Source of the DNA: Micrococcaceae bacterium Sec5.1
Lineage (GTDB): Bacteria > Actinomycetota > Actinomycetes > Actinomycetales > Micrococcaceae
NCBI GenBank assembly: GCA_039636795.1
Contig: CP143430.1
Coordinates: forward strand, 124,001-188,000
DNA: 64,000 nt
Reading direction: 5' to 3'
Position 1 is the first letter of the stretch; the number at the start of each line of letters is the position of its first letter. Under the pieces are notes generated by a model. It made no database searches, was not told the DNA's origin, and worked only from the letters and a program-made list of their open reading frames with translations. Below, piece by piece: positions 46,068-61,582 of this stretch. A program made the position numbers and the translations under genes.

Positions 46068-46922
46068 TTAGGCGACGCCGTTGGACTGCACCTTGTTAGG
46101 TTGGGGCCGAATGGCCACCCGGGAGCTTGCGATACGGTCGGTGAGGGCCGCAGCGGAGTCTTTGACGAGGCGCACGAGCTCGGATTCGGTGCCCAAATTG
46201 AAGCGACTCTCGGGGATCGTGATGCCGATATCACCGACGACGATGGTGCCCGAGAGCCCGAACACCGGGGCCGCGACGGAGATCGCACCCTCGATCCGCT
46301 CTCCGTGCGAGATGGCATAGCCATCCCGGCGGATTTCATCGAGTCGATCGCTGAGCTTGCCTGGGTCGACGCGGGTGCGTGCAGTCAATGCAGGGAGTGG
46401 GCCGTGGACGATCTCGTGCCGGGTCTCATCAGGTAGGAAGGCGAGTATCGCGAGCCCACTGGCGCCTGCGTGCAGAGGCAGCCAAGTATGCATCGGCAAA
46501 ACGTAGCGCAGGGGGTGCGGGGATTCCACTGTGTGGGTGAACATCATCTGCTGGCGCTGTTCGTTGTAGACGCCGAAGAACGAAGACTCGCCTGTGCGCT
46601 CGGTGAGCTGACCGAGGATGTCCGTAGCCGCCTCCTCGAGCGGGAGACGGGCAGTCGTGGCCCAGGCAAGCCGCAGGAACTCGAGTCCGAGCCGATATGC
46701 GCCGTCGCGGGTGCGGCCAACCATCCCAAGCTTCTCCAGGTCGCCGAGCAGCCGATGGGCCGTACTCGCGCTGACACCCATGAGGGAGGCCAGCTCGCGA
46801 ACGCCATAGGAGTCCTCGCCGGTGTCGACCATGAGGGTCAGCAGTTCGATCCCTCGCGCCAGCGGATGCCGTTGCCTGTCCGGCGACTGCTCCGAACCAG
46901 CAGTCGTTTCGTTTGTACTCAT
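46068..46922 (-). CDS. IclR family transcriptional regulator 1
   Basis: A 284-residue regulator with an N-terminal winged HTH (GVRELASLMGVSASTAHRLL, then DLEKLGMVGRT) and the C-terminal IclR effector domain (LPLHAGASGLAILAFLP, DGYAISHGERIEGAISVAAPV). The start lies 105 nt downstream of the MFS gene on the same strand. It is strikingly similar to the second IclR at 56482-57315 throughout, including HPLARGIELLTLM. IclR proteins in catabolic clusters respond to aromatic or alicyclic intermediates; the ligand here is unknown. Confidence 0.93.
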   Translation of the reverse strand: MSTNETTAGSEQSPDRQRHPLARGIELLTLMVDTGEDSYGVRELASLMGVSASTAHRLLGDLEKLGMVGRTRDGAYRLGLEFLRLAWATTARLPLEEAATDILGQLTERTGESSFFGVYNEQRQQMMFTHTVESPHPLRYVLPMHTWLPLHAGASGLAILAFLPDETRHEIVHGPLPALTARTRVDPGKLSDRLDEIRRDGYAISHGERIEGAISVAAPVFGLSGTIVVGDIGITIPESRFNLGTESELVRLVKDSAAALTDRIASSRVAIRPQPNKVQSNGVA

Positions 46923-47027
46923 TGACCCTCCCGACTCACCGACGACGAAGTGCGAAGTCGTTCTGGATGAGTCTATTCAACAGGACACGCCTTCGGATGA
47001 AGAATTGCAGCATTGGGCGCGTGTGTG

Positions 47028-48515
47028 TCAGGGATGGGCAGACGCTTCCGCCTCTTGGGCTGGTTGTTCGGTTTCGGCGACCACCTCGATGACTGCGCCG
47101 CGCTGGTTCATGGGTATCGATTTCTTGATGGCCATGATGGCAGCCAATGCGGCTGCACCCGTGATGACGATGAAAATGATGCCGGCGTTCCATGAAGAAA
47201 TAGTCGGTGCCGTGGTGCCGGGTACCGTGCTCGACGCCAACACGACACCGATGATCGCTGTGCCGATCGCACTGAAGAGGGTCCGACCCACAGTAAAGAT
47301 CAGGCCGACGGCTTCGCTGGTGTCGCGGGCGGAAACGTTCTCCACGATGACGATGGGAATGCTGATCGTGAGGAACACTGTTCCGACCGAGCCAATCACG
47401 ACTGCGACGATCGCAAGCGGGAGATTATGGGTCGAGAAGAAGAAACCGGAGTAGCCCAGGATTCCCAGGCCCGCACCCGAAGCGAGTATCACCTTTCCCC
47501 CGAGCCTTCCGGCGACCCGACCTGCGACGGGTGACAGGATGAATGCGATCGCCCCGGAGATCAGCCCATACAGGCCGGCTTGGGTCGGAGTCAGGCCGAG
47601 CCCGACAGGCAAATTCGCCGGGCTTTGCTGCAGGATGGGCGTGAGGAGACCGGGCGCCGTAAGGATGCCGAGCGATACAAAAGCGGTCACGATGAGAACA
47701 AGAACCAATGAACGCTCGCGGAACAGCCGCAGGTTGAACATCGGCTTCTTGATTCGCAGTTCCCAGATGATCCAGAACGTGAACAGCAGCGCGCCGACAA
47801 CAATGAGGCCGACGACCAACGGGGTGGCGCCCTGAGTGCGCGACGTTGTGAATCCGTACAGGATTGCGGCAATTGCCGGGGCCATCAAGACACCGCCCAG
47901 CACATCCACTCGGCCGCGTTCGGCCACAGCGCCCACGGACCTGGGAAGTGCAAGTGCGACAAGGATCGCCACGACCGCCAGGATGGCCGAGGCGATGAAC
48001 ATGCTGCGCCAACCGCCCGCGGCGAGAAGGATGCCGGCAGCGACGCCTCCTATTGATCCGCCAATCAGGCCCATGCCCGATGTCAGGCTGATGAGCACCG
48101 ACACTCGGGAAGGCGGCGCAACCTCGCGGGCGACGCCGATGAGCAGCGGAAAGAGACCCGCGCTGGTTCCCTGCAGCGCACGACCGATCAGCACTCCCTC
48201 GAGGTTGCCCATGATCACGCTGATGATGGGACCTGCAGCGGATATGAGCATCAGAATGATGAGGACCTTCTTCCGGCCATAAATATCGCCGAGCCGCCCC
48301 GCGATAGCCGCAGTGCCCGCGCCGACGAGCAGGAAAATGGTGACCACCCAGGAGATCGCTGATGCATCGGCATCGAAGGTAGCCATCAGGGTGGGGATGG
48401 CCACGTACATCATGGTCACTTCGAATATCGGGGTGAGTTCGATGACCATGAAGATCGCAACGATCAAGGCGAAGGGCCTGACCGCAATTGACCGTGTGGG
48501 ATCGGTCGACAACAT
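47028..48515 (-). CDS. MFS transporter in the catabolic cluster
   Basis: A 495-residue transporter with about 14 membrane helices of DHA2-like topology. TM1 carries IFEVTMMYVAIPTLM, the following loop GRLGDIYGRKKVLIIL (motif A), and later GRALQGTSAGLFPLLIGVAR. Its C-terminal tail is acidic. ATG at 48515 has TTAGGA 5 nt upstream; the longer open frame lacks a ribosome site. A perfect 6-bp inverted repeat (48557-48572) lies in the promoter. It may import the pathway substrate or export a toxic intermediate. Substrate unknown. Confidence 0.88.
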   Translation of the reverse strand: MLSTDPTRSIAVRPFALIVAIFMVIELTPIFEVTMMYVAIPTLMATFDADASAISWVVTIFLLVGAGTAAIAGRLGDIYGRKKVLIILMLISAAGPIISVIMGNLEGVLIGRALQGTSAGLFPLLIGVAREVAPPSRVSVLISLTSGMGLIGGSIGGVAAGILLAAGGWRSMFIASAILAVVAILVALALPRSVGAVAERGRVDVLGGVLMAPAIAAILYGFTTSRTQGATPLVVGLIVVGALLFTFWIIWELRIKKPMFNLRLFRERSLVLVLIVTAFVSLGILTAPGLLTPILQQSPANLPVGLGLTPTQAGLYGLISGAIAFILSPVAGRVAGRLGGKVILASGAGLGILGYSGFFFSTHNLPLAIVAVVIGSVGTVFLTISIPIVIVENVSARDTSEAVGLIFTVGRTLFSAIGTAIIGVVLASSTVPGTTAPTISSWNAGIIFIVITGAAALAAIMAIKKSIPMNQRGAVIEVVAETEQPAQEAEASAHP

Positions 48516-48556
48516 TTCATTCCTAACTACGTTGTTAGAGAGGGTGTTCGTTTTAG

Positions 48557-48572
48557 CGAAACGACAGTTTCG
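48557..48572. promoter_or_regulatory. Inverted repeat upstream of the MFS gene
   Basis: cgaaacgacagtttcg: perfect 6-bp arms with a 4-base centre, about 42 nt before the MFS start. AACGAA repeats adjoin it. A candidate operator for one of the two IclR regulators. Confidence 0.4.
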
Positions 48573-48657
48573 TTGTGTGGTCTTTCTCATGGTTTCACCG
48601 CCAAAGTGCTCTGTCAAGAGCCTGCGATTCGCTCGCCGAGGAGCTGCGGCGCGACTG

Positions 48658-49482
48658 TCACCGCGCCACTAGGCGAAGAGGCTGGTTGGATACTTCCTTG
48701 AGCAGGCGATCCACCGAGGGCCGGATCCGTACTAAAGGTTCGATGGCTGGAACTGCGTATAGAAAGTTGGCCTCCATGGCCGCTAGTGCGGCTTCTGCTA
48801 CATCCAATGGGTCGATGGCCGTAACGGATGGAATGGAACTTTTTGCTGAGGACCCCCCGGCATTCTTAATTCCAGCGGTTGCAAGTGCCGCGCTCATGGG
48901 GGTGCGGACAATACCTGGGCAGAGGACGGTTGCGCTGACACCCGGCGCTGATGCCTCCAATTCCGCACGCAGCGTTTCCGTGAGTGCGACAACCGCATGT
49001 TTGGTGACGACGTAATCGGCAATGCCTGGAACGATGGACAGTCCCGACATGGAGGCAGTGTTCAGCACATGGCCATGCTTCTTTTCGACCAAGTGGGGCA
49101 CGAATGCCCGGATCCCATGGATGACACTCCATAGGTTCAGGGAAAGGAGCCTTTGCCAAGCCTCCGCGCCGATCTCCCATGACGGGCGCTGATCATTGGC
49201 TGCCCCGACGTTGTTGCATACGAGGTCAAATGTTCCGAAGTGCTCAAGTGTTGCCCGTGCCAGGCTCTCGACCGATTCGGCATCGGTTACGTCGGTGGGG
49301 ACGGCGAGGATTTCAGTACCCAGTGCTTTCAGGTCATTGCGGGTTGCCTCCAATCCGTCGGAGTCGATGTCGGCAATCGCGAGCTTGAGCCCGCGTGAAG
49401 CCAACGACAGCGCGAGCGATCTCCCAATTCCGCTTCCCGCCGCAGTTACTACGGCCACATCGCCTGGCTTGAAACTGGTCAT
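48658..49482 (-). CDS. Short-chain dehydrogenase/reductase
   Basis: A 274-residue SDR from ATG 49482 with AAAGG upstream. It shows TAAGSGIGRSLALSL (cofactor), the acidic D-I-D after strand 2 (AIADIDSDG) favouring NAD, CNNVGAAND, catalytic Ser in NTASMSG and Y-V-V-T-K. After the core, PGIVRTPMSAALATAGIKN resembles SDRs acting on larger hydrophobic alcohols. It is in a run of minus-strand genes with an SDR, an EthD-like protein and the BVMO upstream; 142 nt separates it from the MFS gene. Confidence 0.9.
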   Translation of the reverse strand: MTSFKPGDVAVVTAAGSGIGRSLALSLASRGLKLAIADIDSDGLEATRNDLKALGTEILAVPTDVTDAESVESLARATLEHFGTFDLVCNNVGAANDQRPSWEIGAEAWQRLLSLNLWSVIHGIRAFVPHLVEKKHGHVLNTASMSGLSIVPGIADYVVTKHAVVALTETLRAELEASAPGVSATVLCPGIVRTPMSAALATAGIKNAGGSSAKSSIPSVTAIDPLDVAEAALAAMEANFLYAVPAIEPLVRIRPSVDRLLKEVSNQPLRLVAR

Positions 49483-49596
49483 ATCGTCGACCTTTCTGTG
49501 CTGTTGTCTGTTCGGGAACGCGAGTTCTGTTACGGCCCGAACTGTTATTTGGGCCAGCGACAGGTGCTGCTCCAACGGCGGGCCGGATGTGGTTCA

Positions 49597-50403
49597 TTAC
49601 CCGGTGAATGCGCCACCGTTGACACCCATCGTTTGCCCCGTGATGAATGAGGCCTCGTCCGAGCAGAGAAAGGCGCAGGAAGCTGCGATGTCCGTGCCCG
49701 TGCCGATGCGCCCGACGGGAAGGCTTTGCCCCAGGACATCGCTGGGGGGAAGTTTCCCTGCCGCCTGCTTCTTGCGAACGCTCGGCGTGTCGATGGCAGA
49801 GGGCGCGATGGTGTTGACGGTGAGGCCTGAGGACGCGTATTCGAGAGCCAAGGTCTTCGTCAATGCGATCACGCCGCCCTTCGACGCGGAATAGGACGCC
49901 ATGGTGGGGGCTCCGACCTGGGCGGCCATGGAAGAGATCAGGACCACCCTGCCCCATTTGGCATCCACCATGTCTTTGATGACGGACTGGATGCAGTTGA
50001 ACGTTCCGGTCAGGTTTATGGCTAGAATGCGGTTCCAGGATTCTGCGGTGATATCGGCAAAAGGCTCCTGGACGGCGACGGCCGCACTGCAGATCAACAC
50101 TCCTATGGCGCCGAGTTCATCCCGGATGTTCTCGATGGCATTGTCGACTTGGGCTCGATCGCTAACGTCAACCTGGTAGCCCAGGGCCCGGGCTCCAGCC
50201 GCGGATAGCTCCTTGGCCACGAGCTTGGCGCCCTCGCCGTCCACATCCAGGACTGCGACGGCGTAACCCTCATCAGCCAGTCGCGTGGAAACTTCGCGGC
50301 CGATGCCGGATGCTCCTCCGCTGACGACCGCGACTCGCCTTACCGCCCCGCCCTGGCCAGCCCGCTCGGCCGGTCGGGCTAACTGCTGCTTTGAAGTAAC
50401 CAT
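49597..50403 (-). CDS. Short-chain dehydrogenase/reductase, FabG-like, paralogue of the SDR at 55487
   Basis: A 268-residue SDR from ATG 50403 with AGGAGAG upstream. Motifs: SGGASGIGREVS, the acidic residue in VAVLDVDGEG, catalytic Ser in LISSMAAQ and YSASKGG, followed by PSAIDTPSVRKKQAAGKLP and ITGQTMGVNGGAFTG. In the usual NAG position it reads ICSAAVA, shared in type (ANAAVA) with the SDR at 55487-56242. The whole sequences are clearly paralogous. Probably an NAD-linked alcohol dehydrogenase of the pathway. Confidence 0.9.
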   Translation of the reverse strand: MVTSKQQLARPAERAGQGGAVRRVAVVSGGASGIGREVSTRLADEGYAVAVLDVDGEGAKLVAKELSAAGARALGYQVDVSDRAQVDNAIENIRDELGAIGVLICSAAVAVQEPFADITAESWNRILAINLTGTFNCIQSVIKDMVDAKWGRVVLISSMAAQVGAPTMASYSASKGGVIALTKTLALEYASSGLTVNTIAPSAIDTPSVRKKQAAGKLPPSDVLGQSLPVGRIGTGTDIAASCAFLCSDEASFITGQTMGVNGGAFTG

Positions 50404-50507
50404 GGTTCTCTCCTGTGATTCAGATCTGTGATGCGGTTCGTCCATGAACGCGAGTGGCTGTCTGCTTTCTCAGTGAAGTCTTCGAGACGCAGACCATGCC
50501 GCAGGTC

Positions 50508-50843
50508 CTAGGGGAGGATGGGGTTTCCTTCAGCTACGAAGGGCACGAAAACCATGCTGCTGAGATCGAGGTCCGGGCTCATGCCGAGACCAGCCCCGAA
50601 GAGCAGGTCCCGGGCGGAGGAGGCCGACCCCTCAACTTCGTAGATCGTTGCGTACTGGTGGGAAACCGAAGCGGGCTCTTCGGAGGCTGTGCGGTAGCGC
50701 TGTGCGGCGATAAAACCGGGAAGTTCAAGCACCTGAGGTATGTGTGTGTCCCAGTACCATGTGCGGAACACGTCGTCCCGTTCTTCCACGGGATTAACGA
50801 GCGCCAGTAACATCTCGCGCGGGGGCAGCAGTTCTTCAGTCAT
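50508..50843 (-). CDS. EthD-like dimeric alpha-beta barrel protein
   Basis: A 111-residue protein from ATG 50843 with GGAG 6 nt upstream. It carries LLALVNPVEERDDVFRTWYW, then DTHIPQVLELPGFIAAQRYR, the pattern of the EthD/dimeric alpha-beta-barrel group (F-x-x-W-Y-x-x-x-H-x-P). Such proteins accompany oxygenases in degradation clusters with a poorly known role. It follows the BVMO gene by 29 nt on the same strand, so the two are likely coexpressed. Confidence 0.72.
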   Translation of the reverse strand: MTEELLPPREMLLALVNPVEERDDVFRTWYWDTHIPQVLELPGFIAAQRYRTASEEPASVSHQYATIYEVEGSASSARDLLFGAGLGMSPDLDLSSMVFVPFVAEGNPILP

Positions 50844-50872
50844 TTCAGTCTCCATTTCGGGCGGAACGGTCG

Positions 50873-52516
50873 TCAGCTAGCGCTGATGCTTTCGCGTATG
50901 GTCGACAGCGCACCGTTGTAGTCCCCGGTTGCGGTCATCTCACCCAGGATTTCGTGCAGCTTGGCGCGACCTCCCGGGTTGAGCAGGAACTTTCGCACTT
51001 TGCCCTCGACGTTCGCGCCGTAGTAGTGGCTGTGCTCTGCCGAGAAGATGGATTTGGGCGCCAGTGTCTCGATCATGGTCATCCACGTTTCCTGCTGTTC
51101 GGCGGTCGGTTCGAAGCGTTCATAGCCGTGTCCGCGTGCGTGGATAAGCGTGCCGATGATCCAGTCGATCTGATCCTGCGAGTACCGCGGGTAGTTGCCT
51201 CCGCCGGCGCCGTGCGGCCCGCCGGGGAAGAAGAAGTTTGGCAGCTGGTGGGCGCTGAACCCGCCGAAGTCCGTGGGCCCCTCTTCCCAGTCCGTGCTGA
51301 GGTCCAGGCCGTCGAGGCCCTTGATGCCCATGCGTGTGAGCGCACCGGTGCCGAAGTCGAAGCCTGTTGCGAAGACGATGATGTCATACTCGCGGTGTCC
51401 CTCGGTCGTTTCGATACCCGTCGTGTCGATCCGCGCGATCGGCGTCTCCCTGAGCGCGATCAGCGAGGCCGCCGGATTGTTGAATGACTCGTAGTAGTTG
51501 GTGACGAACGGAGGGCGCTTCGCGCCAAACAGATGGTCCTTCGGGATCAGCCTTTCGGCCGTAACTGGATCCTTGACGATGCTGCGGACCTTGTTGGCGA
51601 GGAAGTCGCAGAATTCGAGGTTGACGTCGCGGTTGGTAGTCATGTCGTAGTAGTTGGAAGTTAGCTTGGCGAAGCCCGGGCTGTTCCAGATCTTCTCGTA
51701 GAAGGCCTGCCGTTCTTCGAATGAGTCGGCGGTGGAGAACTTGCCGGCGGGCTCGTGCAGGAAGCCGGTTGGGTTTGCCGCGGACCCGAGTTTCGCGGCG
51801 ATCCCGTCGAAGTTCTTGCGGAGCCACGTGGTGCGCTCGTCGCTGATGACCCCGTTGTTCAGTGGGGTGGTCCAGGTTGGCGTGCGCTGATAGAGGTCCA
51901 CGGTCTCAACCAAGTCGACGATCGCGGGAAGAATCTGGGCTCCGCTCGGTCCGTTGCCGATGATGGCGACGCGCTTGCCCGTGAAATCGACCGGCGTATG
52001 CGGCCACGCGCCGGTGTGGTAGGCCTGGCCCCTGAAGTCCTCAAGGCCCTTCAAGTCTGGGTAGTTCGGCACGGAGAGGCCGCCGGTCGCCGAGATGACC
52101 CAGCGTGCCCGGACAGTTTCGCCCTTCTCAGTGGTCACCGTCCATGTGGTCTCTGCCTCGCTCCACAGTGCCGATACGACCCTCTGGCCGGTCCGGATGT
52201 GCCCGCGGAGGTCGAAATGGTCCACCACGAAGTTGAGGTAGCGCTCGATTTCGGGCTGGGTGGCGAACTCTTCCTCCCAGCGCCACTTCTCGAAGAGCTC
52301 TTTGGAATGGATGTATCCGTACGTGTAGCTCTCGGAATCGAAGCGCGCGGACGGGTAGCGGTTCCAGTACCAGACGCCGCCGACGCCGTCACCCGCTTCC
52401 AGCGTCTGGGCCGAGAACCCGGCCTCAAGCGCACGCTGCAGCGCGTAGATGCCCACGACGCCAGCCCCGATTACAAGTACTTCGACGTCGATGTCGCTGC
52501 TGGTCTGTTCTGCCAT
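50873..52516 (-). CDS. Baeyer-Villiger monooxygenase (type I, class B flavoprotein)
   Basis: Inserts one oxygen atom from O2 next to a ketone carbonyl, giving an ester or lactone, with FAD and NADPH. The 547-residue protein has the FAD Rossmann motif GAGVVG (17-22). The BVMO fingerprint F-x-G-x-x-x-H-x-x-x-W-P-H covers residues 161-173 (FRGQAYHTGAWPH), and the NADPH motif GNGPSG is at 187-192. YPSARFDSESYTYGY also matches cycloalkanone monooxygenases. ATG at 52516 has AGGAG 8 nt upstream. It leads the minus-strand run and is divergent from an SDR. It needs no ferredoxin, so the redox operon nearby serves something else. Confidence 0.94.
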   Translation of the reverse strand: MAEQTSSDIDVEVLVIGAGVVGIYALQRALEAGFSAQTLEAGDGVGGVWYWNRYPSARFDSESYTYGYIHSKELFEKWRWEEEFATQPEIERYLNFVVDHFDLRGHIRTGQRVVSALWSEAETTWTVTTEKGETVRARWVISATGGLSVPNYPDLKGLEDFRGQAYHTGAWPHTPVDFTGKRVAIIGNGPSGAQILPAIVDLVETVDLYQRTPTWTTPLNNGVISDERTTWLRKNFDGIAAKLGSAANPTGFLHEPAGKFSTADSFEERQAFYEKIWNSPGFAKLTSNYYDMTTNRDVNLEFCDFLANKVRSIVKDPVTAERLIPKDHLFGAKRPPFVTNYYESFNNPAASLIALRETPIARIDTTGIETTEGHREYDIIVFATGFDFGTGALTRMGIKGLDGLDLSTDWEEGPTDFGGFSAHQLPNFFFPGGPHGAGGGNYPRYSQDQIDWIIGTLIHARGHGYERFEPTAEQQETWMTMIETLAPKSIFSAEHSHYYGANVEGKVRKFLLNPGGRAKLHEILGEMTATGDYNGALSTIRESISAS

Positions 52517-52570
52517 TGACTTCACTCCTACTCGGGCGGCGCCACCATGGCCTCCGCAGGATGTAATTCA

Positions 52571-52582: not shown

Positions 52583-52691
52583 CAATTAATGCAATGGAGG
52601 CTCTAAATTCGCGTAAGTTTAGACAAAGTTGCCATTGCCATATTTGAGCGGGCGTGATGAAATTTGTTGACTCATACTTCAAAGGAGAACC

Positions 52692-53633
52692 ATGAACGCC
52701 ACCCCTGACCTACGATTCGACGGACGTGTTGCCATAGTTACAGGAGCTGGCCGCGGCCTTGGCCGCGCCCACGCCCTGCTGCTCGCCGAGCGCGGTGCCA
52801 GGGTCGTCGTGAATGACCTCGGAGGGTCGAAGGAGGGCGAAGGCAACGACGCCGGGCCCGCGAACGAGACCGCAGCGGAAATCGTCGCGGCGGGTGGCAT
52901 CGCCGTAGCCGACACGAACGACGTAGGCAGTGAAGCAGGTTGCCATGCGCTCGTCGAGACCGCGATCCGTGAGTTCGGCCGCATCGACATCGTCGTGAAC
53001 AACGCGGGTATCTCGCGCTGGGCGACCTTCCCGGAAGCTGACGCCACAAACCTTGAGCTCACGCTCGACGTGCATCTGCGCGGCACCTGGCACACGACCC
53101 GGGCAGCCTGGCCCTACATGGAGGAGCAAGGCTATGGGCGGGTCATCACCACAACATCAACCGGAATGCTGGGTCTGCCGGACAACCTTGCCTATGCCAC
53201 CGCGAAGGGGGCCCTCATAGGTTTCACCCGCAGCCTGGCTTTGGCAGCAGCCCCGAAGGGTATCCTCGTCAACTGCGTCGCACCGAACTCGGTGACCAGA
53301 CCGAGCCTTTCGGCCGACAAACCGAATATCGTCACCGCCAATGAAGCGGATTCAGCCCGCCTCCAGGCGATGCAGACCGACCTCGTCTCGCCAATGGTGG
53401 CCTACCTCGCCCACGAGTCGTGCGAGGTGAACGGCGAGATCCTCGTTGCCGGCGCCAAGCGTTTCGCCCGCTGGTTCATGGGGTTCACGCCGGGCTGGCT
53501 CGACGAAAGCGACGGAGTTCCCACCATCGAAGACGTCGTGTCCCACTGGGACGAGATCAACGACCGGGATGGCTACTACATACCTACGGGCACCTACGAT
53601 TGGGGCTCAAAGTTTATGGCGCACCTGGCCTGA
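52692..53633 (+). CDS. Short-chain dehydrogenase, 3-hydroxyacyl-CoA dehydrogenase-like (HSD17B4 type)
   Basis: A 313-residue SDR with AAAGGAG upstream of ATG 52692. The cofactor motif is TGAGRGLGRAHALLLAERGA with VVVNDLGGSKEGEGND, the extended loop typical of peroxisomal multifunctional enzyme type 2 relatives. NNAGISRW, catalytic Ser in TTTSTGM and YATAKGAL follow. The C-terminal 60 residues (FMGFTPGWLDESD, EDVVSHWDEINDRDGYYIP) also resemble that group. It could oxidise a hydroxyacyl-CoA or a cyclic alcohol. It is the only plus-strand gene among the left part of the cluster and is divergent from the BVMO. Confidence 0.88.
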   Translation: MNATPDLRFDGRVAIVTGAGRGLGRAHALLLAERGARVVVNDLGGSKEGEGNDAGPANETAAEIVAAGGIAVADTNDVGSEAGCHALVETAIREFGRIDIVVNNAGISRWATFPEADATNLELTLDVHLRGTWHTTRAAWPYMEEQGYGRVITTTSTGMLGLPDNLAYATAKGALIGFTRSLALAAAPKGILVNCVAPNSVTRPSLSADKPNIVTANEADSARLQAMQTDLVSPMVAYLAHESCEVNGEILVAGAKRFARWFMGFTPGWLDESDGVPTIEDVVSHWDEINDRDGYYIPTGTYDWGSKFMAHLA

Positions 53634-53681: not shown

Positions 53682-54359
53682 CTATGTATCGGAGTCACGC
53701 TCCGCGAGCGGCGCTGAAAGCCCTGCACTCAGGAAGGTAATGAGGTCGGAGATGAGTGCTTCGATCCCTGCCGGAAGGTGTTCCCGTTTGCGCTGGGCGG
53801 TATGGTATCGAGCCAGCGCATGTACAGCGCTGGTCAACGTAACCCACCATCGCTCGTCCAGGACCGATTCCGGAATCCCGGGGACGAGCTTGCCGAGCAG
53901 AGTGCGCAACGTGACAACCGCGGCGCCGACACGCACCCCAACGAGCCCTTCATAGCCCCCTTCTTCGGTGATGTAGAGGGAGAGGAAGGGGAGGTAGTGG
54001 TTGTCCGGCTGGAAGTGAATTGCGAGCGGGCGCACGAAGGCGCTGACCACGTCGGATACGGTGGGAGTTGTTTCGCTCAACATGAGGCCGGCGACCATTT
54101 CGGTACGGCTTACTTCACTCTCCCCGCCGCGGTATTCCATAATCGCCTTCACGATTTCGTCGCGCTCGCCGAAGTGGTATTGCACGGCTGCGTGGTTGCG
54201 CTGGCCGGCGGCTTTGCCGATGTCACGCAGTGGCACCGCCGAGATGCCGTGTTGTGCGAAAAGCCGCTCTGCCTCTGTGATGATCCGTTGGCGTGTTGCC
54301 TGTCCCCGTACATTTTTCCGCTCGCCGGATGACCTGGAGGCAACTGAAGTTTGAGACAT
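53682..54359 (-). CDS. TetR family transcriptional regulator
   Basis: A 225-residue regulator with the N-terminal HTH RQRIITEAERLFAQHGISAV, PLRDIGKAAGQRNHAAVQYH and FGERDEIVKAI. That is the TetR pattern, with a glutamine/histidine-rich recognition segment (RNHAAVQYHF) seen in KstR2-like regulators of steroid and related catabolism. The C-terminal ligand domain is unassigned. The start is 2 nt behind the HtaA-like gene stop, so it is the last gene of the SDR-CMD-HtaA-tetR run. Confidence 0.9.
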   Translation of the reverse strand: MSQTSVASRSSGERKNVRGQATRQRIITEAERLFAQHGISAVPLRDIGKAAGQRNHAAVQYHFGERDEIVKAIMEYRGGESEVSRTEMVAGLMLSETTPTVSDVVSAFVRPLAIHFQPDNHYLPFLSLYITEEGGYEGLVGVRVGAAVVTLRTLLGKLVPGIPESVLDERWWVTLTSAVHALARYHTAQRKREHLPAGIEALISDLITFLSAGLSAPLAERDSDT

Positions 54360-54361: not shown

Positions 54362-54850
54362 CTATGAGTCTAGTGAGACGCGAACCTTGAGCGGAGCCAT
54401 GTCGGTCCCCGCGGGGTAAACGCCGCCGAACAGTTCGACACCGCTTTCCAAGAGATGGACATCGTTCATCGTCCAGGTCAGGTCCACGTCGTTGTGCTCA
54501 GGCTCTTCCGTGCCGGTCGCAGCAATGAGGGTGGTGGTGCCGTCAACATCGGTGCGGGCGGACAGAACTCCGCCCTCGGGTCCGGCGACAAGTTCGGGAT
54601 CGGCGATGAGGACGTCGAGGAAACCGTGATGCGCCTCAAATCGCACGGAACCTGCGAAAGACAGGCGCCATTGCCCTTCCTTTTGCGCCGCGCGGCGCAG
54701 CGGGAACGTGATGGCGCCGTCCGTGGTGACGGCGGCGCCACCCTCCACCGTGTACGAGCCGCGGGCAATGACGGTGACATAGCGCAGCAATGAATCGCGG
54801 ACCGCCCATGTGAGCAATCCGCGATTCACGGCGTCGTGCAATTCCGTCAT
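54362..54850 (-). CDS. HtaA-like domain protein without signal peptide
   Basis: A 162-residue protein resembling one conserved region of the corynebacterial haem-binding protein HtaA. It shows LLTWAVRDSLLRYVTVIARG (W-x-[VR]-x-S-x-x-x-Y), a GAAVTTDGAITFPL segment, and GSVRFEAHHGFLDVLIADPE (G-S-V-x-F-x-x-H-x-G-x-L-x-[VL]). Tyr24 and His74/75 sit where the haem ligands of HtaA repeats lie. Unlike HtaA it has no signal peptide, no LPXTG and no membrane anchor. It is therefore probably cytoplasmic. The start overlaps the CMD gene stop by 4 nt. Its role in a catabolic operon is unknown; it could bind haem or a hydrophobic intermediate. Confidence 0.6.
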   Translation of the reverse strand: MTELHDAVNRGLLTWAVRDSLLRYVTVIARGSYTVEGGAAVTTDGAITFPLRRAAQKEGQWRLSFAGSVRFEAHHGFLDVLIADPELVAGPEGGVLSARTDVDGTTTLIAATGTEEPEHNDVDLTWTMNDVHLLESGVELFGGVYPAGTDMAPLKVRVSLDS

Positions 54851-55470
54851 TTGCCCAGCTCGGGGGAGTGGCTGTCAGGGAAGCCCTCCATGCCGGCCTC
54901 GAGTTCGAGGCCCATGGTCCGGAACACCATGCAGTGGAAATCGTAGGTACCCACTGTGAACAACAGATCGATCAGTTGCTGGCGGTTGAACCGCTCTTCG
55001 AGCGCCCGCCAGGTCTCGTCGCTCACGTTCTTGTCGCGGCACATCTCGTCGATCGCACGTACGAGCACGGAGTCATCCTCGGACCACAGGGCCGCATCGG
55101 GTCCCTCGGCCAACGCGGCGATTTCATCGTCCGTGAGGCAGCCCGCGGCCCTGCTCATGCGCACGTGCTGCGCCCACTCGTACTCGCCGTAGCCAAGCCA
55201 AGTAGTGCGAATGATGGTGATCTCTCGAATACGGTCGCCAAGGCTCGAGTTCCGAAGGTGGTTCGAGTACGGCATCCACCCGCGCATCAGCTCAGGATGC
55301 CACGCATAGATACCGAGGATGTTCGATTTCGGCCTGGTGTCGGGGGTGAGCTGCGGGGCGGCTTGGCCACCGGCGCCGTGCGTGGCGAGCACGCTCAATG
55401 CGTTATCAACCTCGGCATCCCAGTCTTCGGTTGGGCGGGGGGAAATTCGGGGTTGGGTTAGCTGTGTCAT
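54847..55470 (-). CDS. Carboxymuconolactone decarboxylase family protein
   Basis: A 207-residue AhpD-like helical protein from ATG 55470 with AGGAGG upstream. Family features are NILGIYAWHPELMRGWMPYS, LGDRIREITIIRTTWLGYGE, YEWAQHVRMSRAAGCLTDDE and LIDLLFTVGTYDFHCMVF. The redox C-x-x-C of AhpD is not present; instead Y-x-W-x-x-H occupies the active region, as in many enzymes annotated as carboxymuconolactone decarboxylase or 4-carboxymuconolactone-like. It may decarboxylate or hydrolyse a lactone-like intermediate. It lies 16 nt behind the SDR and overlaps the HtaA-like gene. Confidence 0.85.
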   Translation of the reverse strand: MTQLTQPRISPRPTEDWDAEVDNALSVLATHGAGGQAAPQLTPDTRPKSNILGIYAWHPELMRGWMPYSNHLRNSSLGDRIREITIIRTTWLGYGEYEWAQHVRMSRAAGCLTDDEIAALAEGPDAALWSEDDSVLVRAIDEMCRDKNVSDETWRALEERFNRQQLIDLLFTVGTYDFHCMVFRTMGLELEAGMEGFPDSHSPELGK

Positions 55471-55486
55471 CTCTGTCCTCCTGTTT

Positions 55487-56242
55487 TCATGCGATGAAAG
55501 ATCCGCCATTGACGCTGATGGTCTGGCCAGTCACGTACGAGGCGTCATCGGAGGCCAAGTAAGAGACAGCGGCGGCGATGTCCGCGCCGGTACCCATGCG
55601 GCCCACAGGGATGTATTTCGCCATGTCAGCGACTGATGGCATGGTGCCGGCTGCCCGCTTCCTCTCCACGCTCGGGGTGTCGATCGACGACGGAACCACC
55701 GTATTAACCGTCACTCCGGACTTGGCAAATTCCACTGCCAACGCTTTGGTCAACGCCAGCTGACCGCCCTTGGATGCGGCGTAGTGCGCCATTCGCGGTG
55801 CACCGCGCTGGGCGCTCGACGACGAAATCAGCACGACACGGCCTTTGCCTGCCTCGAGCAGGTCCGGCATGCCGGATTGCACGAGGTTGAAGGTACCCGT
55901 GAGGTTGATATGCAGGGTCTGGTTCCACTGCTCAAGCGTCATGTCAAGGAATGGCTGCTGCGGCGCAACGGCTGCGTTGGCCACGATCACCGACAGTGGG
56001 CCGAGATCGGCCCGGATAGCGGCAAGTGCAGCGTCTACTTGTTCACGGTCGCTCACGTCGGCCTGGTATCCGCGGGCGATGCCCCCCGTCTCTTCGATCC
56101 CGGCAGCGGCCTTCTCGGCCGCACCCTCGGTGCGCGTGAGGATAGCGACCGCGAAGCCGTCCTTCGCAAGCCTCTCTGCGATCGACAGACCAATGCCTGC
56201 CGCTCCTCCTGAGATGACTGCGACGCGCCCTGCCCCGCTCAT
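55487..56242 (-). CDS. Short-chain dehydrogenase/reductase, FabG-like, paralogue of the SDR at 49597
   Basis: A 251-residue SDR from ATG 56242 with AAGGAG 8 nt upstream. Cofactor motif SGGAAGIGLSIAERLA; ANAAVA at the NAG position; LISSSSAQ and YAASKGG for the catalytic Ser, Tyr and Lys; SSIDTPSVERKRAAGTMPS and VTGQTISVNGGSFIA at the end. Strand 2 ends in AILTRTEG, with no acidic residue and an Arg, hinting at NADP. It resembles the SDR at 49597-50403 throughout. It heads the run SDR-CMD-HtaA-tetR and is divergent from the second IclR gene. Confidence 0.9.
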   Translation of the reverse strand: MSGAGRVAVISGGAAGIGLSIAERLAKDGFAVAILTRTEGAAEKAAAGIEETGGIARGYQADVSDREQVDAALAAIRADLGPLSVIVANAAVAPQQPFLDMTLEQWNQTLHINLTGTFNLVQSGMPDLLEAGKGRVVLISSSSAQRGAPRMAHYAASKGGQLALTKALAVEFAKSGVTVNTVVPSSIDTPSVERKRAAGTMPSVADMAKYIPVGRMGTGADIAAAVSYLASDDASYVTGQTISVNGGSFIA

Positions 56243-56481
56243 TGGATCTCCTTGCGGATGAAGCGCGTGCTTTTCTTTGTGGTCATGGTTTGTCCCTATT
56301 CCTTGCCTGGCGGACTGCTGAGGCGAGGCGGGCGTGCCGCCACGCCTTCCTGTGATGCTCCGCATGCGCTACTGTTTTCTACAACTGAACAGACGTTCCG
56401 TTCTCGGGAGATTTTAGAATCGCATGTCCCGAAGATGGATGTCAAGCCACTGCAAGTGGCCATAAAACGGGATGGTGAGCG

Positions 56482-57315
56482 ATGGGTAGTGCGGCAGGAA
56501 ACAGCGATCGAGAGGCCGTCGACGGGCTACGCCGCAGGCACCCTTTGGCCCGCGGCATTGAATTGCTCACGCTCATGACTGACAGTGACCACGATGTCCA
56601 CGGAGTGCGGGAATTGGCGGGCCGTCTTGAGGTAAGTCCAAGCACCGCGCATCGCCTCATCGCAGATCTTGAAAAGCTGGGGCTTGTCAGCCGCACGGCC
56701 AATGGTTCGTATCGGCTGGGTCTTGAATACCTGCGTCTTGCGTGGACGACGACGGAACGGTATCCGATCCAGGAGGTGTCGAGGGATACTCTGCAGGAGC
56801 TCACGGAGCAGAGTGGCGAGTCATCATTCTTCGCCGTCTTTGGCGAGCAGCGGCTGAAGATGATGTTTGCGCTCGTGGTGGAGTCGTCGCACCCCCTGCG
56901 CTACACACTGCCCCTGCGCCAGCAACTCCCGCTCCACGCCGGTGCGAGCGGTTTGGCGATCCTCGCGTTTCTGCCGGCGCAGATCCAAGCCAGCGTTGCG
57001 CATGGCAGGCTGCACCCGGCCACCGATCGCACACTGGTTCGGTCGGAGAGCCTCCTCGACAGGCTGGCCATTATCAGGAGTGACGGGTACGCGATTACCC
57101 ACGGTGAGCGTATTGAGGGGGCCATCGCAATCGCTTCGCCGGTCTTCGGGCCATCGGGCACTGTGGTCGGTTCGGCGGGGATCTCCCTTCCCGAGGCGCG
57201 CTTCAACGCCGCGCATACGTCGTCGCTCGCGGGCCTGGTCAAGCAGTCCGCGCGCCAGATCACCGACTACCTCACTGGCGCTCGGGATCCACGCACCGGC
57301 ATCGCGCGGAAGTAG
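56482..57315 (+). CDS. IclR family transcriptional regulator 2
   Basis: A 277-residue regulator paralogous to IclR 1, with HPLARGIELLTLMTDSDHDV, the HTH GVRELAGRLEVSPSTAHRLI, and the effector domain LPLHAGASGLAILAFLPAQI and DGYAITHGERIEGAIAIASP. It sits between the divergent SDR run and the redox operon, a usual place for the regulator of one or both. The 239-nt divergent region holds gaacagacgttccgttc near 56390, a loose inverted repeat. Ligand unknown. Confidence 0.93.
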   Translation: MGSAAGNSDREAVDGLRRRHPLARGIELLTLMTDSDHDVHGVRELAGRLEVSPSTAHRLIADLEKLGLVSRTANGSYRLGLEYLRLAWTTTERYPIQEVSRDTLQELTEQSGESSFFAVFGEQRLKMMFALVVESSHPLRYTLPLRQQLPLHAGASGLAILAFLPAQIQASVAHGRLHPATDRTLVRSESLLDRLAIIRSDGYAITHGERIEGAIAIASPVFGPSGTVVGSAGISLPEARFNAAHTSSLAGLVKQSARQITDYLTGARDPRTGIARK

Positions 57316-57366
57316 TCAAGGCGTCCTTGACATGGGTTCGGAGCTAAGCTCATACTGATCCTGTTG

Positions 57367-57396
57367 CGTTGAAAGAATCAACTGTTCGATTCAACG
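57367..57396. promoter_or_regulatory. Inverted repeat upstream of the redox operon
   Basis: CGTTGAA (57367-57373) and TTCAACG (57390-57396) form perfect 7-bp arms with a 16-base centre, 77 nt before the ferredoxin reductase start. tgttcgattcaacgaaa inside resembles the TGTTCGAT-type sites of PobR/PcaU-like IclR proteins. Confidence 0.45.
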
Positions 57397-57472
57397 AAAA
57401 GCTAACGTACGAGAAGTATCGCGAGGCCAATCCAAACCCCCTCGCGATCCCTGACTACACCGAGGATCAACG

Positions 57473-58702
57473 ATGACCCAAGCAAGCGCCGACCGCCACG
57501 TAGTCATTGTGGGCGCGTCCTTGGCCGGAACACGCGCGGCCGAGGGCCTGCGCAATCTTGGCCACACCGGCCGCATCACGCTGATCGGGGCCGAGTCCGA
57601 GTTGCCGTACGACCGCCCGCCCCTGTCGAAAGACCTGCTCACGTCCGATTGGTCCGATGAGTCTGTCGAGTCGTTTCGCCTGGCCACCAAAGCCAGCCTC
57701 GAAGGTGCCGGCATCGAGCTCGAGCTGGGTGTCGCCGCAGCCGGGCTGGACGTCGCCAAACGCAGCGTAATTCTGGCCGATGGCACAATCATCAGCTACG
57801 ACCTCGTTGTCATCGCGACAGGTGCAGCCGCCAGGCCTTCGCCTTGGCGCCCCGGGACCGGTGTTTATCAACTCAGAACGCTTGAAGACTCGCGAGCCAT
57901 TGCCGCCCGCTTGAAGCTCGGCGAGCCCGTCGTCGTGGTCGGCGGCGGTTTCATCGGCACAGAGATCGCTGCGGCCGCGGTCGGCTTTGGCTGCGACGTC
58001 ACAGTGGTGGACCCCGTTTCCGAGCCGATGGCGCGTATCGTCGGTCCTGAGATCGCCCGCAGCCTCGTCGAACTGCATCACCGGCACGGGGCCCAAACCC
58101 GGTTCGGCGTCGGCGTCGCCGACATCCAGGGCAAGGACGGTGAACTTACAGTCATCCTCGACGACGGCACTCGCCTTGAGACCTCGACGGCGGTAGTAGG
58201 CATCGGCTCGATCGCATCGACCGAATGGCTCGCGAGTTCCGGTCTCACGCTCGACAACGGCGTAGTAACGGACGGCTTCCTCCGCGCCGTAGGAGTCGAT
58301 GACGTCTATGCGATCGGCGACGTGGCGCGCTGGCCCCACCCCGGCCGCGGCGTGCAGGTTCGTGCCGAGCACTGGACCAATGCCAGCGACCAGGCGCGTT
58401 ATGTTGCCACCGCCATCACCCAAGGGGTCGATGAGCCCTATGACTCCACGGATTACGTGTGGTCGCACCAGTACGACTGGAAGGTCCACACCATCGGCTG
58501 GCGTCACCCCGGGGGCAGCTCCACTATCGTCGGCGACCTCGCCAAAGGAGGGAAAACCGCGGTGATTCACAGCGACGCGAATGGAGACGTCTGTGGTGCG
58601 GTCACCGTGAACTGGCCACGCGGGCTCAACCTGGCCCGCAGGCTCTTCGCCAGCGGGGAGTCCGCAGAGACAATCGTCGAAAAACTTGGGCAGCTGGCCT
58701 GA
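57473..58702 (+). CDS. FAD-dependent ferredoxin reductase (rhodocoxin/putidaredoxin reductase type)
   Basis: A 409-residue flavoprotein of the class that passes electrons from NAD(P)H to a ferredoxin for oxygenases. The FAD motif is VIVGASLAGTRAAEGLR at residues 11-27; the NAD motif VVVVGGGFIGTEIAAAA is in the middle; VDDVYAIGDVARWP supplies the second FAD contact. The C-terminal reductase domain (YVWSHQYDWKVHTIGW) matches rhodocoxin reductase relatives. It heads a four-gene operon. Normally such a reductase serves a P450 or Rieske oxygenase; neither is in the window. ATG at 57473 has a weak ribosome site (GAGGATCAACG). Confidence 0.93.
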   Translation: MTQASADRHVVIVGASLAGTRAAEGLRNLGHTGRITLIGAESELPYDRPPLSKDLLTSDWSDESVESFRLATKASLEGAGIELELGVAAAGLDVAKRSVILADGTIISYDLVVIATGAAARPSPWRPGTGVYQLRTLEDSRAIAARLKLGEPVVVVGGGFIGTEIAAAAVGFGCDVTVVDPVSEPMARIVGPEIARSLVELHHRHGAQTRFGVGVADIQGKDGELTVILDDGTRLETSTAVVGIGSIASTEWLASSGLTLDNGVVTDGFLRAVGVDDVYAIGDVARWPHPGRGVQVRAEHWTNASDQARYVATAITQGVDEPYDSTDYVWSHQYDWKVHTIGWRHPGGSSTIVGDLAKGGKTAVIHSDANGDVCGAVTVNWPRGLNLARRLFASGESAETIVEKLGQLA

Positions 58703-58738
58703 CGGCCGCGCTGTCAGTGTGTAGAGAGGAAACGAACC

Positions 58739-59062
58739 ATGGTCTATGTGATTGCTGACGCCTGCGTCGACATTCAGGACAAGAGCTGCATGCAGGAGTG
58801 CCCTGCCGACTGCATCTTCGAGGGGGGACGGATGACCTACATCAACCCCGACCTCTGCATTGACTGCGGGGCCTGCATGACGGCCTGTCCCGTGGATGCC
58901 GTGTTCTACGAGGCCGAACTTCCGGCCGACAAGGAGGACTACCTAGGAATCAACGAGCGCTTCTTCGAAGAGGTAGAGACGCCGAAGAGCGGCCGGAAGG
59001 CCGGCAAGATCGACTATGACGTCGACGTTATTGCCGCTCTTCCGCCGCGAACAGGAGCCTGA
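58739..59062 (+). CDS. fdxA: 7Fe ferredoxin (FdxA type)
   Basis: A 107-residue soluble ferredoxin. Cysteines at 9, 17 and 50 fit a 3Fe-4S cluster; those at 21, 40, 43 and 46 fit a 4Fe-4S cluster; Cys25 is the usual extra. The layout CMQECPADCIFEGG and CIDCGACMTACPVDAVFYE is the FdxA signature. ATG at 58739 has AGAGAGG upstream, 36 nt after the reductase stop. Most actinobacteria also have a housekeeping fdxA near dapC, so this one may be an accessory copy dedicated to this operon. It is the obvious partner of the reductases on both sides. Confidence 0.93.
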   Translation: MVYVIADACVDIQDKSCMQECPADCIFEGGRMTYINPDLCIDCGACMTACPVDAVFYEAELPADKEDYLGINERFFEEVETPKSGRKAGKIDYDVDVIAALPPRTGA

Positions 59063-59064
59063 AC

Positions 59065-60405
59065 ATGACTGCCCTGCGCGTCGCCGTCGTCGGTTCCGGC
59101 CCGTCGGGGGCCTATTGCGCCCAACTGCTGACCGAAGAGTCCGGGTCGCCGGTTGAGGTGGACGTCTTCGAGCGCCTGCCGGCACCGTTCGGCCTGGTTC
59201 GCTACGGTGTCGCACCCGACCACCCCCGCGTCAAGTCGATAACCACCTCGTTCGCCGAAGTGTTCGACGAGACCCCGGGTATACGCTTCCTCGGCAACGT
59301 GCAGGTGGGCACAGATATTACGCTCGATGAGCTCCGCGCGAATTACGACGCCGTAGTGTTCGCGAGCGGGGCGCAGGTTGACCGGAACCTCGGCATCCAG
59401 GGCGAGGACCTGGCTGGTGTGCACGGGGTCCGCGAATTCGTGTCGTGGTACCAAGGCCACCCCGACACCAAGACCGATGCCTTCGCCCTCAACGGAAAGC
59501 GTGCGGTCATCATTGGCATGGGCAATGTCGCACTCGACGCAGCACGCATGCTTGCCCACACCCCAGAAGCACTCCGGGCTACAGACGTGCCCGAGCACAT
59601 CGTTGACGCCTTCGCAGCGAGCACATACCGCGAGATCGTGGTGATCGGCCGCCGTGGCCCCGCGTTCGCGAAGTTCACGAACAAGGAGTTCATCGAGCTG
59701 CTGGAGGTCGATAGCTGCGACGTCGTCATCGATCCCGCCGACCTCGAGCTCGACGCCCAGCAACAGGCACACGCCGACGCCGACCCGGCAGCAAGGCGGT
59801 TGCTCGCCACGTTCGCGAAGGCAGCCGAACGCGGCGTTCTCGGGCGTAACACAGCCATCCGCTTCCTTTTCGACTGCACACCCGTCGAACTGATCGGCGA
59901 GGAATCCGCGTTGGCCATCCGCCTGGCAAAGACCAGCGACCCCAACATCACGGAAATCCTGGAAACCGACCTCGTCCTCCGCTCGGTCGGATATCGGGGC
60001 GCAGCGATCGACGGCCTGCCCTTTGACGAGAAGTCCGGCACCATTGCGCACCTCGACTCGCGCGTCGCCGACGGCCGGAATGTATTGCCAGGCGTGTATG
60101 TAGCCGGCTGGATCAAGCGAGGCCCCTCGGGTGTCGTTGGCACGAACCGCCGCTGCGCGTCCGAGACTGTGACCTCGATCCTCGCAGACGTCGCCGCACC
60201 GGGCTGGACATCCACGGCGACCCCAGCTGCCGTCGTCGACGAGCTGTTGCGCTCGCGCGGCGTGGACGTTGTCGATTGGACCGCATGGCAGTCTCTCGAG
60301 CAGGCCGAGTTCGCGGCGGGTGAGGCGGTGGGTCGCGAACGCGTCAAGCTGCACGACCGCGCCGAGATGCTCCGCGCCGCAGGCGTCGGGGTTGGGGTCG
60401 ACTGA
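59065..60405 (+). CDS. Ferredoxin-NADP reductase, adrenodoxin reductase-like (FprA)
   Basis: A 446-residue flavoprotein starting 2 nt behind fdxA. It shows the FAD motif VAVVGSGPSGAYCAQLL, RLPAPFGLVRYGVAPDHP, the NADP motif GMGNVALDAARML followed by VVIGRRGPAFAKFTNKE, and VYVAGWIKRGPSGVVGTNR. That is the signature of the adrenodoxin reductase/FprA family, which transfers electrons between NADPH and FdxA-type ferredoxin. Having a second, unrelated ferredoxin reductase in the same operon is unusual. The C-terminal 100 residues match the expected helical tail. Confidence 0.93.
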   Translation: MTALRVAVVGSGPSGAYCAQLLTEESGSPVEVDVFERLPAPFGLVRYGVAPDHPRVKSITTSFAEVFDETPGIRFLGNVQVGTDITLDELRANYDAVVFASGAQVDRNLGIQGEDLAGVHGVREFVSWYQGHPDTKTDAFALNGKRAVIIGMGNVALDAARMLAHTPEALRATDVPEHIVDAFAASTYREIVVIGRRGPAFAKFTNKEFIELLEVDSCDVVIDPADLELDAQQQAHADADPAARRLLATFAKAAERGVLGRNTAIRFLFDCTPVELIGEESALAIRLAKTSDPNITEILETDLVLRSVGYRGAAIDGLPFDEKSGTIAHLDSRVADGRNVLPGVYVAGWIKRGPSGVVGTNRRCASETVTSILADVAAPGWTSTATPAAVVDELLRSRGVDVVDWTAWQSLEQAEFAAGEAVGRERVKLHDRAEMLRAAGVGVGVD

Positions 60406-60421
60406 GGGAGCAACGCAAGAT

Positions 60422-61582
60422 ATGGATAGCTTCTCTTCAGGCCTCGCCGCTGCGGTGCGCGAGGCCGTGGGGCGGGTGAGCGATCCCGAATTGCGTCGCC
60501 CCTTGGCCGAACTCGGCATGATTAAGGGCGTCGAGGTCACGGGCGGTGTCGCCGTCATCGGCATCGTGCTGACCATCTCGACGTGCCCCGCCGCTGCCCG
60601 CATTGAGCGGGACGTGCGGGCGGCGGCCACCGCCGTCGGCGGCGTCAAAGAGGTGGTCATCAACGTCGGTGTCATGACCGCGGAGGAGCGCAATGCTCTC
60701 ACGGCCAAGCTGCGGGAGGGACGGGGCCAATCAAGTATGCCTTTCACCGCAGAATCGCTCACGCGCGTTATCGCGGTATCCAGCGGCAAGGGCGGCGTGG
60801 GTAAGTCCACCGTCACCACGAATCTCGCCGCGGCCATGGCTGCGCGGGGGCTGAGCGTCGGGATCATCGACGCCGACGTACACGGATTCTCAGTCCCGGG
60901 ACTCCTTGGACTCTTCGACAATCAAGGCAAGATCATCAGGCCCACCCGCATAGACAATCTTGTACTGCCGCCTGTTGCGCACGGTATCAAGGCCGTATCG
61001 ATCGGCATGTTCCTCCCGGAGGGTGCCGAGGACACTGCTGTGTCATGGCGGGGTCCCATGCTGCACCGCACGCTCGAGCAGTTCCTCACCGATGTCTACT
61101 TTGGGGACCTCGACGTGCTGCTGATCGACTTGCCGCCCGGAACCGGCGACATCGCAATCTCCCTGGGGCAGATCCTGCCACACGCGGAAGTGCTCGTCGT
61201 TACGACGCCGCAGCCAGCGGCCTCTGGTGTTGCGGTCCGGAGCGGCATGCTGGCACGCGAGTTCGACCAGCGCGTCATCGGGGTGGTCGAAACAATGTCG
61301 CCCATGCGGTTCGCCGACGGCAGCGCCTTTGAGCCGTTCGGTGTTGGCGGCGGGGCGGCAGTCGCGGCGAGGCTCTCCGCCCTTGGCGGTAACGTGCCTC
61401 TGCTCGCCTCAATCCCCTTCAGCAATGGGCTGCGCGCCGGCGGTGATACCGGAGTGCCTGTAGCCGCAGCCGACCCCGAAGATCCCGCGGCCCGGGCGTT
61501 CACTGATCTCGCCGAAAGGCTGGTTGTGAGCCCGCGCGGACTGTCCGGACGCAGGCTCCCGCTCTCTCCGGTCACTGCTTAG
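60422..61582 (+). CDS. Mrp/NBP35-type P-loop ATPase, Fe-S carrier family
   Basis: A 386-residue protein. The N-terminal DUF59/MIP18 domain (VSDPELRRPLAELGMIKGVE and LTISTCPAAARIERDV) precedes a Mrp ATPase with the deviant Walker A GKGGVGKST at residues 122-130, DADVHGFSVPGLLG and LLIDLPPGTGDIAISLGQ. The C-x-x-C that binds the bridging cluster in many Mrp proteins is missing: the segment reads ETMSPMRFADGSAFEPFG. This also occurs in actinobacterial Mrp as I recall it. ATG at 60422 has GAGGGAG upstream; the longer open frame overlaps fprA. Position suggests cluster delivery to the ferredoxin or to an oxygenase elsewhere. Confidence 0.9.
   Translation: MDSFSSGLAAAVREAVGRVSDPELRRPLAELGMIKGVEVTGGVAVIGIVLTISTCPAAARIERDVRAAATAVGGVKEVVINVGVMTAEERNALTAKLREGRGQSSMPFTAESLTRVIAVSSGKGGVGKSTVTTNLAAAMAARGLSVGIIDADVHGFSVPGLLGLFDNQGKIIRPTRIDNLVLPPVAHGIKAVSIGMFLPEGAEDTAVSWRGPMLHRTLEQFLTDVYFGDLDVLLIDLPPGTGDIAISLGQILPHAEVLVVTTPQPAASGVAVRSGMLAREFDQRVIGVVETMSPMRFADGSAFEPFGVGGGAAVAARLSALGGNVPLLASIPFSNGLRAGGDTGVPVAAADPEDPAARAFTDLAERLVVSPRGLSGRRLPLSPVTA

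Follow-up and report, generated by a model that had tools for sequence, protein, structure and literature searches.

What does the oxidative gene block at positions 46068 to 61582 of this stretch of Micrococcaceae bacterium Sec5.1 act on, with which enzyme does its pathway begin, and what is an HtaA gene doing in it? The stretch, 64,000 nucleotides long, is called the window below. An earlier note had described the block as 16 genes of an oxidative cluster leading from an alcohol through a ketone to an ester or lactone. That logic is upheld by our analysis, and we are confident that the block belongs to a P450-to-BVMO (Baeyer-Villiger monooxygenase) catabolic locus of actinobacteria, part of which lies beyond the window. 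A cluster of this sort is familiar; what is new is the stand-alone HtaA gene, which is the unusual part of the locus. Taken as a whole, the best explanation is such a locus in which HtaA would handle heme for the P450, and we hold it with moderate confidence.

The locus from P450 to Baeyer-Villiger monooxygenase

All 16 genes were confirmed in 46068-61582 with the families listed in Table 1. Two details of the earlier description were revised, namely the start of the Mrp gene, which is most likely at 60422 and not within the FprA-like gene, and the label of a protein called "EthD-like". The latter, of 115 aa, did not match the EthD profile at E 1e-3 and reached no family cut-off, its sole Pfam match being DUF4286 (22.6 bits, cut-off 25.8); its homologues adjoin the BVMO gene in 9 of the 13 BVMO-bearing loci (one locus per genome). 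The block had also been closed at 61582. However, a CoA-transferase III gene begins at 63935, and the P450 operon continues outside the window in the order P450, one-cluster ferredoxin, ChsH2-type OB-fold protein, thiolase and CoA-transferase III.

The P450 of the window genome is encoded at C1:190927-192207, about 3 kb beyond the window end, and matches the P450 of R. globerulus at 77%. The CYP150 assignment was made with this ortholog by comparison among PDB sequences only, where the best match is CYP150A6 (6dcd) with 432 bits and the next gives 154 bits. The P450 is present in 12 of the 16 HtaA-bearing copies of the cluster, in locus L046 as an edge fragment only; as for the other four, L042 is a 6-kb contig, L047 and L130 end before the place of the P450, and L051 is considered further below. 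In L043, L044 and L046 the P450-thiolase-CoA-transferase set lies directly upstream of the run of FprA, FdxA and ferredoxin reductase (FdR) genes, and neighbours in related loci include P450, thiolase, CoA-transferase III and aldehyde dehydrogenase.

A pathway for cycloalkanols or monoterpenoid alcohols in which the alcohol itself is the starting compound, with the nearby P450 unrelated and HtaA a stray gene, would agree with the presence of a BVMO and short-chain dehydrogenases/reductases (SDRs) but no P450 inside the window, and with the glycogen-debranching-type gene that, in the window genome, stands between the block and the P450 operon. Nevertheless, we regard it as quite improbable: the P450 set stands beside the block in the 12 copies, and directly upstream of the redox genes in the three loci just named, and the block offers the FdR of the window no other oxygenase as partner, whereas this FdR fits as electron donor for the CYP150-type P450. 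With this P450 and its ferredoxin so close to the window end, an alcohol is most likely not the starting point.

A second P450, closest to CYP105-type structures, accompanies the cluster in L045 (10657-12290), L048-L050, L074 and L134, and in L045, L074 and L134 it is joined by an additional FdxA-like ferredoxin; this P450 is absent from the examined stretch of the window genome.

The earlier note had suggested a search for the same gene order, and the order was found to recur in other genera, so that the refuting outcome named there, an order kept nowhere else, did not arise. The 16 copies with HtaA come from Arthrobacter, Rhodococcus, five further named genera and other genomes. An alignment-based scan gave 12 loci with HtaA, with cluster copies in Arthrobacter sp. 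HMWF013, two Rhodococcus, Herbiconiux daphne, Microbacterium sp. SS28 and Leaf159, Leifsonia sp. Leaf264, two Leucobacter and Streptacidiphilus jeojiense. L052 (Streptomyces), with several HtaA copies and no cluster gene, was not counted among the 16, and a single-sequence HtaA scan of genome contigs found no loci. When the BVMO was used as query, 5 of 206 genomes matched within the genus. Within the order, the window genome not counted, 3 of 396 did so, two of them with 75-76% and one with 52% identity. Four new BVMO loci were at or above 75%; three of them have HtaA between TetR and the gene of the carboxymuconolactone-decarboxylase family (CMD), and the fourth (G486) goes no further than the BVMO. 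The cluster genes of G045 and G022 are at about 71-92% identity and in the same order except at the IclR1/MFS end. Since the gene set and mostly the gene order recur in other genera, the grouping is more than chance, and the locus represents a complete P450-to-BVMO gene set kept across actinobacterial genera, with a defined first enzyme for a substrate search. A plasmid-borne cluster was considered and rejected; BVMO matches were seen on 21 plasmid records and P450 matches on 3, all below 60%.

Type I BVMOs carry the motif FxGxxxHxxxWP. In the present enzyme, FMO-like by Pfam, this region reads FRGQAYHTGAWP, and two Rossmann motifs, GAGVVG and GNGPSG, are seen in the translation, so that it is a type I BVMO. 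Its PDB relatives, phenylacetone monooxygenase (418 bits), OTEMO (414 bits) and steroid monooxygenase (392 bits), score about equally and therefore do not name the substrate. There is no alpha/beta hydrolase among the 16 genes, which agrees with the earlier remark that a clear lactonase is lacking, and the lactone hydrolase gene of a cyclohexanol (chn)-type cluster is not found in the block.

In the peripheral catabolic pathway we propose, the CYP150-type P450 would hydroxylate an alicyclic, perhaps terpenoid, substrate with electrons from the HcaD-type ferredoxin reductase and the small ferredoxins. The SDRs would then turn the alcohol into a ketone, into which the BVMO would insert oxygen, and the CoA-transferase would activate the opened product for cleavage by the thiolase and the OB-fold protein, a pairing familiar from steroid side-chain cleavage. 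The IclR and TetR regulators, the MFS carrier and the ABC importer would serve the pathway. By analogy, an alicyclic terpenoid is perhaps a fair guess for the substrate, because CYP150A5 converts beta-ionone to the 4-hydroxy form, as stated in PMC6237146. In the open-access literature searched, no report was found that names the substrate of the locus or an HtaA-P450 link.

When compared with the CYP150A5/A6 systems of Mycobacterium, the P450 belongs to the same family and also has a one-cluster ferredoxin encoded next to it, but here it is joined to a BVMO, SDRs, a CoA-transferase and a thiolase. Camphor/cineole-type pathways share the logic of P450 hydroxylation, dehydrogenase and BVMO, whereas the present locus has a CYP150-type P450, no clear lactone hydrolase and another gene set. 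As in the steroid side-chain Ltp2/ChsH2 aldolase pair, a Thiolase_C_1-type thiolase adjoins a ChsH2-type OB-fold protein, although other steroid genes were not seen in the stretch examined here. Loci on plasmid p_2 of Rhizobium lusitanum and in Streptomyces sp. NBC_00080 likewise combine P450, ferredoxin, FAD reductase, SDR, CMD and BVMO (53-56%) genes; their acyl-CoA dehydrogenase and 2-oxoacid dehydrogenase genes differ from the present cluster, and the Rhizobium locus has an alpha/beta hydrolase instead.

The stand-alone HtaA protein

The earlier label "HtaA-like", from which nothing had been drawn, is well founded: the protein scores 92.4 bits with PF04213 against a curated cut-off of 24, and a CR fold is predicted for it. 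It keeps W15, S20, Y24, H74 and Y145, with the axial Tyr, the helper His and the propionate Tyr retained, the roles of these heme-pocket residues being taken from PMC12494546. Among 58 HtaA proteins the axial Tyr and the propionate Tyr are invariant (58/58), and the helper position is His or Tyr in 58/58. The HtaA of the locus probably binds heme. The pocket might instead have been turned to a substrate, product or effector, with heme handling lost, but the chance of this seems slight; the varied substrates should let the residues drift, yet the Tyr pair and the helper His/Tyr are kept throughout.

No signal peptide is evident in the 162-aa protein, as judged from its N-terminus by eye and a simple hydropathy window; the judgement by eye covered 21 stand-alone HtaA proteins, the A1 members and the window protein, with the 302-aa protein of L108 outside it. 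The start of the HtaA gene overlaps the CMD stop, and the signal peptide and export expected of a secreted heme-uptake HtaA are not evident. In contrast to the CR domains of HtaA, ChtA and HtaB of Corynebacterium, the protein is single-domain; and in contrast to Corynebacterium heme uptake, it is encoded in a catabolic cluster with no heme ABC transporter, as none occurs among the families of the window block and the ABC system beyond it is of the oligopeptide type. We propose that it is an intracellular CR-domain protein, that is, a hemophore domain kept in the cell among oxidative genes, of which those of P450s come first. In a tree, stand-alone HtaA proteins part from the domains of multi-domain proteins with support 88/99, one divergent domain excepted; a single origin appears in 64% of bootstrap trees, and several branches are long. 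HtaA had also been considered as the missing oxygenase, an idea dropped once the P450 operon appeared.

HtaA beside P450 genes

We then ask whether stand-alone HtaA genes keep company with P450 genes elsewhere. A limit of 10 kb was used, and the expected values assume even gene placement. Within the Arthrobacter clade, 45 HtaA matches were found in 34 genomes, and 20 of the 45 have a P450 within the limit, compared with 1.12 expected from the P450 counts in the same genomes. When the HtaA proteins are clustered at 50% identity, a nearby P450 occurs in 8-9 of the 14 groups (0.53 expected). Some of the P450s used to build the profile came from the loci themselves, and a Pfam PF00067 list read by eye gave the same 20/45. 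Three regions are short (L103, 4.5 kb; L109, 12.8 kb; L139, 6.3 kb), so that the P450 count could be too low here but not too high, and three genus copies of the present cluster were scored "none" because their P450 lies 12-22 kb away. The nearby P450s all fall outside one vertical subtype of 17 members, which gives 0 of 17 against 20 of 28 for the other loci, a split that was drawn with the P450 counts already known.

Outside the genus, two batches of short HtaA genes were examined. A P450 lies within 10 kb in 5 of 6 cases of the first batch and in 3 of 6 (0.34 expected) of the second, which was picked before its surroundings were seen, hence 8 of 12 combined (0.90 expected). These short frames were taken among the matches listed, excluding frames inside multi-domain loci (G413, G1273) and a cluster copy (G322). 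On the other hand, none of 11 multi-domain HtaA loci has a P450 within 10 kb; these were hand-picked, and "secreted" was judged from frame length and domain repeats.

This closeness may merely reflect catabolic islands shared by both genes, which we consider rather unlikely. Even placement is too generous an assumption behind the expected values, many of the loci are catabolic, and one subtype and several loci have no P450. However, flavin-monooxygenase genes, which are also accessory and oxidative, served as a control in the same 34 genomes, and at least 4 of 45 have a listed P450 within 10 kb (by eye); against this control, 20/28 for HtaA gives p = 4e-8 with the 17-member subtype excluded post hoc. 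Moreover, HtaA and P450 genes follow one another on one strand, with no gap above 400 nt, in L032, L038 (both genes), L039, L040, L109 and L115, and their spacing is 4 nt in L038 and L109 and 136 nt in L040, with a 4-nt overlap in L140. From this arrangement, HtaA and P450 look co-operonic in seven groups. In Herbiconiux the cluster's HtaA is directly behind the P450-thiolase-CoA-transferase run, and HtaA is not tied to CMD, because CMD does not adjoin it in L048-L050.

Several loci without a close P450 have the usual P450 redox partners adjoining HtaA, such as FprA-like and flavodoxin genes in L035. More widely, stand-alone HtaA adjoins FdR (L039, L115, L107), FprA-like (L035, L036, L104) or flavodoxin (L037, L101) genes, and a Tyr heme ligand is also known from catalases. 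HtaA might therefore itself be a heme enzyme or electron carrier, with Tyr-ligated heme and fed by FdR, and not a heme supplier. We find this unlikely; such redox genes are usual P450 partners too, and L142 fuses a P450 to FprA-like and flavodoxin parts. Also, the CR domains known so far act as ferric hemophores in which the heme is five-coordinate, ligated by tyrosinate and masked at the metal (PMC12494546), properties that fit catalysis poorly.

The L142 fusion, at 5712-8735 on the minus strand, is an intact 1007-aa frame of P450, FprA-like reductase and flavodoxin, 1 kb from a stand-alone HtaA. We know of no protein with this order of parts, and none like it was found in the literature search.

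The following observations weigh against the explanation preferred here. L051 has no P450 within its 20 kb. In the window cluster about 12 kb separate HtaA from the P450, over the limit, and in the two sister genomes 13 and 22 kb. Loci with a BVMO 52-56% alike (G548 52%, Rhizobium 53%, Streptomyces 56%) have P450s and no HtaA match. With all loci included, 20/45 against 4/45 in the flavin-monooxygenase control is a weaker comparison (p = 2e-4). The 17 genus loci of the vertical subtype have no nearby P450, and most P450 genes have no accompanying stand-alone HtaA gene. Other surroundings were also seen: LysR and PadR regulators, a VanA-type Rieske oxygenase and a ferredoxin reductase in L107 (6937-12790), an XdhC/PucR/RraA purine-type locus in L031, and an acyl-CoA dehydrogenase in L034. 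From these three loci and the subtype of 17, the P450 is not the sole context of HtaA, whose role may be wider. In L089, a member of this vertically inherited subtype adjoins a BTAD regulator and a GGDEF/EAL protein.

Weighing these points, we give somewhat less than an even chance to a task of HtaA tied to the P450. Under this proposal HtaA would handle heme for the P450, by storage, by transfer to the apo-enzyme or by capture of lost heme; that it supplies heme in particular is doubtful. Equally tentative is the general idea, drawn from gene neighbourhoods, that stand-alone intracellular HtaA proteins are heme-handling P450 partners, each an inward-turned hemophore domain co-operonic with the P450 it serves. 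To our knowledge, how soluble bacterial P450s acquire heme is not settled, and HtaA in P450 operons of several unrelated groups is a concrete candidate for handling it. If true, bacterial P450s would have a factor of their own for the delivery or buffering of heme, and it would help P450 biotechnology, where yield is limited by heme loading.

Feature coordinates and further observations

Table 1. Features of the locus and its surroundings, in window numbering; positions above 64000 lie outside the window.
Feature	Position	Strand	Matches and remarks
IclR-family regulator 1	46068..46922	-	PF01614, PF09339; 84-86% identity in two other Arthrobacter genomes
MFS transporter, DHA2/EmrB-like (under family cut-off)	47028..48617	-	
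SDR 1	48658..49575	-	PF00106
SDR 2, FabG/BadH-like	49597..50445	-	57% to SDR 4 over 244 aa
Small 115-aa protein	50508..50855	-	DUF4286, below cut-off
Type I BVMO	50873..52525	-	PF00743, PF13738; PDB relatives PAMO, OTEMO, steroid MO
SDR 3	52692..53633	+	70-91% identity in related loci
TetR-family regulator	53682..54359	-	PF00440, PF17939
Stand-alone HtaA (CR-domain) protein, 162 aa	54362..54850	-	PF04213
CMD-family protein	54847..55509	-	PF02627
SDR 4, FabG/BadH-like	55487..56365	-	family search
IclR-family regulator 2	56482..57315	+	family search
FdR, HcaD/AndAa type	57473..58702	+	PF07992, PF14759; NCBIfam HcaD/AndAa below cut-off
FdxA-type ferredoxin	58739..59062	+	NF045480 FdxA_Actino, 159.7 bits, cut-off 125
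FprA-like NAD(P)H-dependent reductase	59065..60405	+	PF07992
Mrp/ApbC-type Fe-S carrier	60422..61582	+	PF10609
Glycogen-debranching-type enzyme, between both locus halves	61757..63916	+	PF14742
CoA-transferase III	63935-65158	-	3' end (63935..64000) inside window
Thiolase	65155-66453	-	
ChsH2-type OB-fold protein	about 66305-66760	-	
One-cluster ferredoxin	66703-66921	-	
CYP150-type P450	66918-68207	-	
Oligopeptide-type ABC transporter	68542-74141	+	

From Table 1, SDR 4, CMD, HtaA and TetR are closely packed on the minus strand, with an overlap of 4 nt between CMD and HtaA and a gap of 2 nt between HtaA and TetR, and FdR, FdxA, the FprA-like reductase and Mrp follow one another on the plus strand. 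No shared operator-like motif emerged when ten intergenic stretches of the locus were scanned crudely. The true start of the MFS transporter is probably downstream of the listed TTG, and that of SDR 1 is probably the ATG near 49482. The Mrp gene of the locus is a second genomic copy, and the better-scoring of the two strong copies lies elsewhere in the genome.

The glycogen-debranching-type gene is probably not a member of the locus, and it has no match beside the cluster in L021 or L022. A homologue at 75-76% identity is found 5-7 kb from a different HtaA-P450 locus in L023, L024 and L025, and the neighbourhood of this gene is perhaps a favoured insertion site. Farther away, no tRNA was found in the 64-kb window, which carries two complete rRNA operons (16S-23S-5S) at 10842-16387 and 19530-25075, on the same strand and about 3 kb apart.

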